Shown here: positions 20,096-47,917 of the stretch, in pieces
How positions within the stretch are numbered: the first letter of the stretch is position 1
Layout of the letters: each line of letters begins with the position of its first letter
Source of the DNA: Hydrogenophaga sp.
Lineage (GTDB): Bacteria; Pseudomonadota; Gammaproteobacteria; Burkholderiales; Burkholderiaceae_C
Assembly: GCA_025458915.1 (NCBI GenBank)
Contig: JALORL010000007.1
Span: 1 to 48,394, forward strand
DNA: 48,394 nt
Direction of reading: 5' to 3'
Notes under the pieces: model-generated
The model's input: only the letters and a program-made list of their open reading frames with translations
Told to the model about the DNA's origin: nothing
Databases searched by the model: none
Program-made: the position numbers and the translations under genes

Positions 20096-20172
20096 CGGGG
20101 TGTAGCTTAGCCTGGTAGAGCGCTACGTTCGGGACGTAGAGGCCGGAGGTTCGAATCCTCTCACCCCGACCA
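20096..20172 (+). tRNA. tRNA-Pro (anticodon CGG)
   Basis: 77 nt including encoded CCA. Acceptor CGGGGTG pairs with CACCCCG; anticodon stem CTACG/CGTAG with loop TTCGGGA gives anticodon CGG; T-loop TTCGAAT. Very similar in anticodon arm to E. coli proK. It lies between ispB and pilB. No integrase or attachment repeat is seen beside it. Confidence 0.97.
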
Positions 20173-32871: not shown

Positions 32872-32947
<76 letters not shown>

Positions 32948-37870: not shown

Positions 37871-38027
37871 AGGCCTGTTCACCCCCTGTTTTTCTGAGGG
37901 ATTGCGGATCAAATGAACCATGCGAAAGGCGTTCGCGACGCCGCGCATGGCCTTTCTGGCTGCGACACAACGCGAATGGCTTGAAAACAGCGCCATTCGC
38001 TCCTGAAAAAACAGCGTGAACGGGCCC
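37871..38027 (-). mobile_element. MITE-like interspersed element, copy A
   Basis: 157 bp between mscL and pdxA with no transposase. The left end (AGGCCTGTTCACCCCCTG) and the reverse complement of the right end (GGGCCCGTTCACGCTG) form terminal inverted repeats that continue through a T-run. Its internal block (37932-37952) matches copy B at 47139-47159 in 20 of 21 positions, in the opposite orientation. An internal palindrome GCGAATGGC/GCCATTCGC occurs near 37972-38000. The outermost G at 38027 is the last base of the pdxA TAG stop. Confidence 0.7.
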
Positions 38028-46224: not shown

Positions 46225-46965
46225 TCATCCGTTGAGGTCGTCGGCAAGTTGCTGGGCGGCTTCAAAATCGAGGTCACCGCTGTAGATGGAGCGACCACAG
46301 ATCACGCCCTCCACGCCTTCATCTTCCACTTCGCACAGCGCACGAATGTCGTCGAGGCTGGACAGCCCACCGGAGGCGATCACCGGCACCGACAGGGCCT
46401 GCGCCAGTTTCACAGTGGCTTCGATGTTGATGCCGGAGAGCATGCCGTCGCGCCCGATGTCGGTGTAGATGACGCCTTCCACACCGTAATCTTCGAATTT
46501 TTTGGCCAGATCGATGACTTCATGGCCCGTGAGCTTGCTCCAGCCGTCGGTGGCGACCTTGCCGTCCTTGGCATCCAGGCCGACGATGATGTGACCGCCG
46601 AAAGCGGTGCAAGCATCCTGCAGGAAGCCAGGGTTCTTGACCGCAGCCGTACCAATGATCACATAGCGCAAGCCCGCGTCCAGGTACCGCTCGATGGTGT
46701 CAAGGTCACGGATTCCACCGCCGAGTTGCACGTCCACCTCCGAGCCCACTTCCTTGAGGATGGCGCGGATGGCCTGCTCGTTGCGGGGCTTGCCGGCAAA
46801 AGCGCCATTCAGGTCCACCAGATGCACGCGGCGCGCTCCCCGGTCCACCCAGTTGCGGGCCATGGCAGCCGGGTCTTCCCCGAACACCGTGGATTGGTCC
46901 ATGTCGCCCTGTTTCAGGCGAACGCACTGGCCGTCTTTCAGATCAATGGCGGGAATCAACAGCAT
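46225..46965 (-). CDS. hisA: phosphoribosylformimino-5-aminoimidazole carboxamide ribotide isomerase
   Basis: 246 residues, barrel fold like HisF. Isomerises ProFAR to PRFAR. Catalytic Asp in [16 protein letters not shown] (about 8), second Asp in [11 protein letters not shown] (about 130), and QLGGGIRD. Start at the ATG at 46965. It is separated from hisH by 289 bp holding repeat element copy B. Confidence 0.96.
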
Positions 46966-46988
46966 GATGGTTCAGGGGTTGGCGATTG

Positions 46989-47255
46989 GGGCCTGTTCAC
47001 ACTATTTTTCCAAGTGCGAAGGGTTGAAAACAGCGCCAATCCAGGCGCGCGACGGCGGCCAGACCGGGCGTCTGGCCTGGGAGTGCAAGGGCGAGTGGCG
47101 CTGATTCCAGCCCATTCCCTTCGGGTTGCGGCCAAGAAGGCCATGCGCGGCGTTGCGAAGCCTGGCCAGGGGGCAACCCCGGCTGAGTTTCGCGCCTTGC
47201 ACATGGCCTTTTTTTGATCCGCAACGCATCTTGGAAAAACAGTGTGGACAGGCCC
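46989..47255 (+). mobile_element. MITE-like interspersed element, copy B
   Basis: 267 bp filling nearly all of the hisH-hisA gap. Terminal inverted repeats of 26 bp (46989-47014 and 47230-47255) match at 24 positions; both begin GGGCCTGT and end TTTTTCCAAG. Internally it shares blocks with copy A, including 20 of 21 bases at 47139-47159, and a TTGATCCGCA stretch near the right end. There is no transposase. It is longer than copy A by two internal inserts. The last base is part of the hisH TAG stop. Confidence 0.75.
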
Positions 47256-47917
47256 TAGGGCTTCCAGGACAGAAAATTGCGGTACAGGGCCAAGCCTTGG
47301 TCGGCACTTTTTTCCGGATGGAACTGGGTGGCAAAGATGTTGTCGCGGGCAATGGCCGCAGCAAAGCGCCCACCATACTCGGCCTCGCCTGCGCAATGCG
47401 CGGGTTGCTCAGGCCGAGCATAAAAGCTGTGTACAAAATAAAAATAGGCACCTTCCCCGATGCCTGCCCACAGCGGGTGCGCTGGGCCAGCCTCGCGGGC
47501 GTGGAACACCTGGTTCCAGCCCATCTGAGGCACCTTGAAGCGGCTGCCATCGGCCTGGTGACGGCCTTCCAGCCGGAAGCGCACCACCTCGCCCGGAATC
47601 AGGCCCAGACCCTGGGTGGGGCCTTCTTCGCTGCGGTCCAGCAGCATCTGCATGCCGACACAGACCCCGAACAGGGGCTTGTTGGCAGCGGCGTGCAGCA
47701 CCGCGGCCAACAAGCCGGATGCGGCGAGTTCGCGCATGCAGTCGCCCATGTGACCCTGACCGGGCAACACCACGCGGTCGGCATCCAGCACCTGTTGGGC
47801 TTCGCTGGTGACCAACACGTCCATGTCGGCAGACCGGGCCACATGCTGCACCGCCTGCGAAACCGAGCGCAGGTTTCCGCTGCCGTAATCCACCACGGCG
47901 ACCGTCTTGCGTTTCAT
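47255..47917 (-). CDS. hisH: imidazole glycerol phosphate synthase, glutaminase subunit
   Basis: 220 residues, class I glutamine amidotransferase. Nucleophile Cys in [12 protein letters not shown] (about 84), His and Glu in [23 protein letters not shown] at the N-terminus. Supplies ammonia to HisF. Its TAG stop overlaps the end of element copy B by one base. 12 nt after hisB. Confidence 0.96.

Follow-up and report, generated by a model that had tools for sequence, protein, structure and literature searches.

A MITE of probable IS5-family type at the hisH stop codon of a Hydrogenophaga genome and its multi-genus family of two-armed elements

Related elements in other bacteria

ISAba12 belongs to the IS5 family of insertion sequences (ISs). 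The element it moves in Acinetobacter, MITEAba12, is described as short, non-coding, of near-constant length, and family-wide in occurrence, with ends shared with its IS (PMC6382973). The elements analyzed here are alike in these respects, but MITEAba12 measures 111–114 bp and generates 9-bp duplications, whereas the present family has a modal length of 266 bp, a TA duplication, and two hairpin arms. The Correia elements (NEMIS) of Neisseria, compared here by description, share TA termini, long and short size classes, and long stem-loops, and have terminal inverted repeats (TIRs) of 24 bp; their lengths of about 107 and 155 bp differ from the 266 bp found here (excerpts of PMC2229807). According to the same excerpts, ERIC (RU-1) and RUP are likewise intergenic with TA termini, and RUP has an IS partner, but ERIC is 127 bp long with TIRs of 7 bp, and RUP is ascribed to IS630-Spn1 (PMC2229807). 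IS5 itself targets Py-T-A-Pu, mostly CTAG, and is described in the available text as duplicating all four bases (PMC5493358), whereas in the present family TA alone is duplicated.

The titles and abstract beginnings retrieved in literature searches, which were partly swamped by arthropod mites and incomplete in coverage, contained no name for this MITE family. Likewise, neither they nor the partial texts consulted described, for this kind of MITE, a fold with two arms that is conserved while its base pairs turn over by compensatory change, or an insertion that rebuilds a stop codon.

An element between hisH and hisA

The window, i.e., the entire stretch of DNA analyzed, comprises 48,394 nucleotides of a Hydrogenophaga sp. 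contig (JALORL010000007.1, assembly GCA_025458915.1). Two tRNA genes are located at 20096–20169 and 32875–32947. The features relevant to the element are the following:

about 37872..38027, minus strand: second relative of the element, shorter (about 156 bp) and decayed; TA after its high-coordinate side
46225..46965, minus strand: hisA (TIGR00007, above cut-off)
46987..46988, no strand: left target copy, TG where TA is expected (decayed), from the sequence and the flanks of the family
46989..47255, no strand: MITE, 267 bp, from its end pair, copies, and flanks
46989..47014, plus strand: left terminal inverted repeat, outer 14 bp an IS-like end (GGGCCTGTTCACAC)
47018..47117, no strand: arm A, long imperfect hairpin (fold, covariation)
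47118..47124, no strand: tiny hairpin at the junction of the arms (fold)
47125..47225, no strand: arm B, second long imperfect hairpin (fold, covariation)
47230..47255, minus strand: right terminal inverted repeat, from the end pair
47255..47917, minus strand: hisH (TIGR01855, above cut-off), C-terminus LSWKP as in relatives
47256..47257, no strand: right target copy, TA, completed by element base 47255 to the stop codon TAG of hisH (minus strand)

From the stop codon of hisH to the start codon (ATG) of hisA, the distance is 289 bp. A first-pass annotation, made from the sequence alone, had considered this gap abnormal for two usually adjacent genes and explained it by a MITE-like element with 26-bp ends. 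Both points are borne out by the relatives: in a survey that matched 55 of 60 genomes (including that of the window), 29 relatives were fetched and 27 could be parsed for both genes; all 27 are uninserted, with gaps of 18–31 bp in 26 cases and 73 bp in one.

Measurement of the inverted arms (46989–47014 and 47230–47255) agrees with the annotated ends: they are 26 nt long, match at 24 of 26 positions (92% complementary), and enclose 215 nt. No other inverted pair with at least 24 of 26 matches and at most 300 bp apart exists in the window, and none was found in any of 10 random windows generated with an order-1 Markov model. The annotation had also stated that the interior lacks a transposase. 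Indeed, the only listed open reading frame of at least 60 aa that lies wholly within the element, with 75 aa, has no match in either NCBIfam or Pfam at E 0.001. TIRs, a transposase-free interior, copies at multiple sites, and a target-site duplication, by which bacterial MITEs are recognized, are all present. Together with the outer ends shared with ISs and the uninserted junctions in relatives, this supports the earlier reading of 46989–47255 as a MITE. That reading did not extend to a likely parent in the IS5 family, the fold into two arms, the exact location in the hisH stop codon, or the spread across genera.

Copies, spread, and age

The element is not a single-copy segment. The same genome harbors three further full or near-full copies (225–267 of 267 bases, 85–91% identity), i.e., four in total, and several fragments. 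Copies in this and other genomes also confirm the proposed membership in a family. Matches at E 0.001 were present in 16 of 60 genomes, and the end motif, with up to two mismatches, in 24 of 399 genomes of the bacterial family and 20 of 141 genera (both genome counts including that of the window); the reversed control pattern had no match among the rows listed. The exact 23-base end occurs in 91 stretches of DNA; the genera among the 80 listed include Hydrogenophaga, Acidovorax, Ramlibacter, Diaphorobacter, Giesbergeria, Simplicispira, Curvibacter, Rhodoferax, Ideonella, and Leeia. Plasmid and phage collections yielded no match to the element at E 0.01.

Recent movement is evident in five genomes (G103, G356, G410, G190, and G014), where the most similar copies at separate loci show only 2–7 base differences; other copies in G103 and G014 show 11–25. 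The three full copies in the genome of the window differ by 36–42 bases and are therefore old, and the copy in the window, itself old, has probably lost its mobility.

Length and target site

Of 80 distinct copies, preselected for ends 255–300 bp apart, 57 are exactly 266 bp long and 75 fall between 264 and 268 bp; shorter and longer forms exist outside this set, and five loci with end pairs of low similarity (L076, L119, L136, L172, and L196) were removed before counting. TA flanks the left end in 69 of 79 copies, the right end in 65, and both ends in 59, which documents the target-site duplications that the first-pass annotation had proposed to look for; the copy in the window has TG on one side. 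The base preceding the left dinucleotide is a pyrimidine in 77 of 79 copies (51 C, 26 T), and a purine follows the right dinucleotide in 74 of 79. The target is therefore YTAR, with duplication of TA. A duplication of four bases is unlikely because the first base on the left varies, whereas the right TA is always preceded by a C that belongs to the element. The family flanks thus show the Py-T-A-Pu target expected of an IS5-family (IS427-like) derivative.

Insertion at stop codons

On the minus strand, the junction with hisH reads CCC TA|G, so that the stop codon TAG consists of TA from the target and the G with which the element begins. All 28 HisH sequences compared have WKP, WNP, or WQP at the C-terminus. 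A coding test based on GC3 placed a stop codon on the junction in 41 flank sides, as opposed to 4 and 5 sides for the other two frames; 83 of 133 sides bearing TAG were not coding-like. With a looser threshold, 52 sides had a junction stop codon versus 21 for the other two frames together, and therefore some 10 of the 52 may be due to chance. Under this threshold, 58 of the 80 copies were classified, and 45 show a junction stop codon on one or both sides. The copy in the window, which scores 0.13 against a threshold of 0.15, does not count among these; its junction was read directly. This coding-frame heuristic suggests that the stop codon is rebuilt as TAG in about 45 of the 80 copies.

Among the YTAR sites of the window, only 3 of 22 are located on a stop codon according to crude gene calls (Fisher p 0.0005 versus 45 of 80; p = 0.06 when YTAR sites in coding interiors are omitted). 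The junctions may reflect targeting or the survival of harmless insertions. Either end of the element can carry the junction stop codon (21 and 31 sides), and there is therefore no strict orientation to the flanking gene.

The likely parent

G014 and G074 contain ISs of 824 bp whose ends are of the type TA|GGGCCTGTTAACAC and whose transposase is split over two frames; at the other end, G014 has GGGCGTGTTAACAC, and G074 has diverged further. Among 30 transposase loci fetched, 12 contain elements of 804–827 bp with such ends and TA on both sides. Their ends, compared with those of the MITE by eye and at the ends only, are identical in 13 of 14 outer bases, with about 14–16 outer bases in common. 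In two MITE copies of G014 (L124 and L125), one end is exactly GGGCCTGTTAACAC, and copies ending in TTAAC (L124, L125, L047, and L100) stem from G014, G010, and G074. The two pieces of the transposase match PF13340, PF01609, and the IS5-family model NF033580, the latter with a score of 104.9 for the N-terminal piece, which is below the cut-off of 110. We take the ISs to represent the IS427 group; presumably, they also resemble IS1301 of Neisseria. They share with the MITE the outer 14–16 bases, the TA duplication, and the YTAR target, but carry a two-frame transposase and often have GGGCGTGTTAACAC at one end.

Related transposases are present in 42 of 299 genomes of the family. Transposases of this kind reside together with the MITE in G014, G074, and G108. 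They are not enriched in MITE-bearing genomes: only G074 and G108 of the 24 genomes positive for the end motif are among the 42, the two genome sets overlapping without being identical. A transposase of this type was not found in the genome of the window, which is 81% complete, and PF13340 had no match in three genomes with near-identical copies (G356, G410, and G190). The complete genome G356, with three near-identical MITEs, contains no IS-sized end pair at up to one mismatch in 13 bases.

In the search for an autonomous IS bearing the entire 21-bp end of the MITE, 120 loci, some of them duplicates of one place, yielded 88 end pairs with a separation of up to 3500 bp. Only two pairs exceeded 346 bp; each included an end with six mismatches and was taken as chance. 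Unpaired ends in 16 loci, inspected by eye, are contig ends, mini-hairpins of 39–50 bp, or solo halves. In G103, an IS-like end stands alone and is followed by other DNA. The full-length IS with the same ends envisaged in the first-pass annotation was thus found for the outer 14–16 bases, whereas none of the ISs encountered has the full 21-bp end. The sequences compared point to an IS5-family IS of 804–827 bp with TA flanks as the likely parent.

A conserved fold with compensatory changes

The element is palindromic over nearly its whole length. Its fold comprises an end stem and a pair of long arms, with −159.9 kcal/mol and a z score of −9.3 as RNA; the other strand, folded as DNA, has a z score of −6.7. 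Covariation was assessed in an alignment of 76 of the 80 copies (length 260–270), which omits L154 and the longer L040, L041, and L186. Pair-keeping changes on both sides affect 67 of 109 pairs. Paired cells amount to 95.2% versus 86.7% in shuffles and doubly changed cells to 604 versus 155, and none of 500 shuffles reached any of five covariation measures. When partners were slid by 1–3 columns, the covariation score dropped from 0.234 to 0.035–0.049, a control that somewhat favors the structure, which was derived from the same alignment of related copies.

The exceptions to pairing are nearly symmetric: G.T and A.C occur at 28:27 in the end stem and at 99:87 in the arms, which have 236 other mismatches. 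An initial arm count of 82 G.T to 39 A.C was discarded; its pairs came from a fold of one strand under RNA rules, and the ratio of 99:87 is preferred because the structure used for it is shared by the two strands. RNase P RNA from this bacterial family, represented by 24 of 30 sequences (up to 360 nt, oriented by match strand), has G.T:A.C ratios of 47:26, 34:16, or 25:16, depending on the structure. Its strand bias differs from that of the MITE arms with p 0.13; the power of the strand-bias test is therefore limited. The near-symmetry favors maintenance at the DNA level, short of proof.

Nearest-neighbor copies (61 comparisons) differ by 148 compensated and 427 uncompensated pair changes. Neighboring compensated pairs number 20, compared with a mean of 9.9 and a maximum of 18 in 500 shuffles; uneven rates along the stems could also explain this excess. 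The only orthologous locus among the 76 copies, shared by two genomes, shows nine substitutions, including two compensated and four uncompensated pairs. Two studies give arm homogenization and the inversion of loops or spacers as marks of template switching (PMC8794818, PMC8604942). The apex of arm A is inverted in one of the 76 copies (L100).

Variants and related elements

The decayed relative at 37872–38027 shares two blocks with the MITE, one of 74 nt (78%) and one of 42 nt (71%), both inverted; the shared blocks that the first-pass annotation had seen in a second element are thus real. This relative has kept part of arm B, and its arm A has shrunk to a small hairpin. Elsewhere, there are forms with arm A only (L089, 158 bp; L118, 167 bp), forms with arm B only (L092, L185, and L197; 163–164 bp), and forms of 51–52 bp consisting of the ends only. 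Mini-hairpins of 39 bp (L114, L132, L180, and L200) combine two ends and a short loop; all have TA on the right, and the left flank is TA in L132, L180, and L200 and TT in L114.

The 268-bp element L119, with ends of about 19 bp, has the same end stem and two arms (z −15.8), and its interior shares just a 10-base match with the family consensus among the hits listed. L172 carries the ends and folds less clearly. This 266-bp element (L172:2440–2705) has an exact 21-bp end on one side and a strongly diverged interior; it stems from a metagenome bin named Neptuniibacter, which may reflect a binning error or a wider spread. A 346-bp copy (L136:193–538) contains a long palindrome nested within arm B, possibly another small repeat inserted in the hairpin. 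A palindromic 268-bp element (L154:4133–4400) has different ends (GAACCTGTTCACGATCT). These resemble the ends (GAGCCTGTCTACGATCT) of two 845-bp elements around transposases (L082 and L085), which suggests a parallel pair of IS and MITE.

Alternative explanations

A chance inverted repeat in ordinary intergenic DNA is extremely improbable in view of the multiple copies, the TA flanks, the random windows, and the uninserted junctions in relatives. Mobilization by a transposase outside the IS5 family, e.g., an IS630-like enzyme duplicating TA, also seems unlikely. A TA duplication is typical of IS630/Tc1-mariner elements. The three genomes with near-identical copies and no match to PF13340 would fit such an enzyme, as would the pairing of RUP with IS630-Spn1 (excerpts of PMC2229807), but the YTAR target and the outer 14–16 bases agree with IS5-family elements that are themselves flanked by TA, and no other IS with such ends was encountered in the loci examined.

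It is quite unlikely that the pairs are kept by the function of a structured RNA, such as an mRNA stabilizer, a substrate of RNase III, or a regulator. The strong fold with its covariation, the location between co-directional his genes, and the precedents of NEMIS and ERIC in the available text of PMC2229807 are in line with an RNA. However, a functional RNA would be expected to accept G-U more readily on one of the strands, whereas G.T and A.C are about equally frequent, subject to the limited power of the control; in addition, junction stop codons at both ends leave the element without a fixed orientation to the flanking gene. Rfam models reached their gathering scores in the window only for the two tRNAs, with the lone hit in the element far below the cut-off. 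A site search of 46900–47350 found no promoter-like site and two terminator-like matches (0.8 expected), one of them inside the element with a 5-pair stem on the minus strand. This lends little support to a role of the element as a transcription terminator or promoter.

Origin and significance

All in all, the element is very probably a non-autonomous DNA transposon (MITE) of IS5-family type, for which we infer mobilization in trans and pairing at the DNA level. Judging from the sequences, an IS5-family transposase probably mobilizes it in trans, as in a known kind of MITE. The transposase would have excised the MITE and inserted it at CTAA, a site provided by the stop codon of hisH; as the element begins with G, the TA would have become TAG again, leaving HisH unaltered. 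Pairing would be maintained at the level of DNA, mainly via template switching between the arms during replication and possibly assisted by selection for a folding that joins the two ends.

More tentatively, and with considerable doubt, the family might conserve the shape of its DNA rather than its sequence, through recurrent template switching and selection for folds that pair the ends, linked to a rebuilding of stop codons that spares the protein. If true, the family would be a natural test bed for the origin of palindromes and compensatory changes in DNA. With its dozens of copies of a single long palindrome, two of them orthologous in different genomes, it can be used to test directly whether compensatory changes stem from template switching in DNA or from selection on RNA. 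A YTAR target, which covers the stop codons TAA and TAG, combined with an end base that rebuilds TAG, suggests a simple transposon lifestyle for compact genomes.
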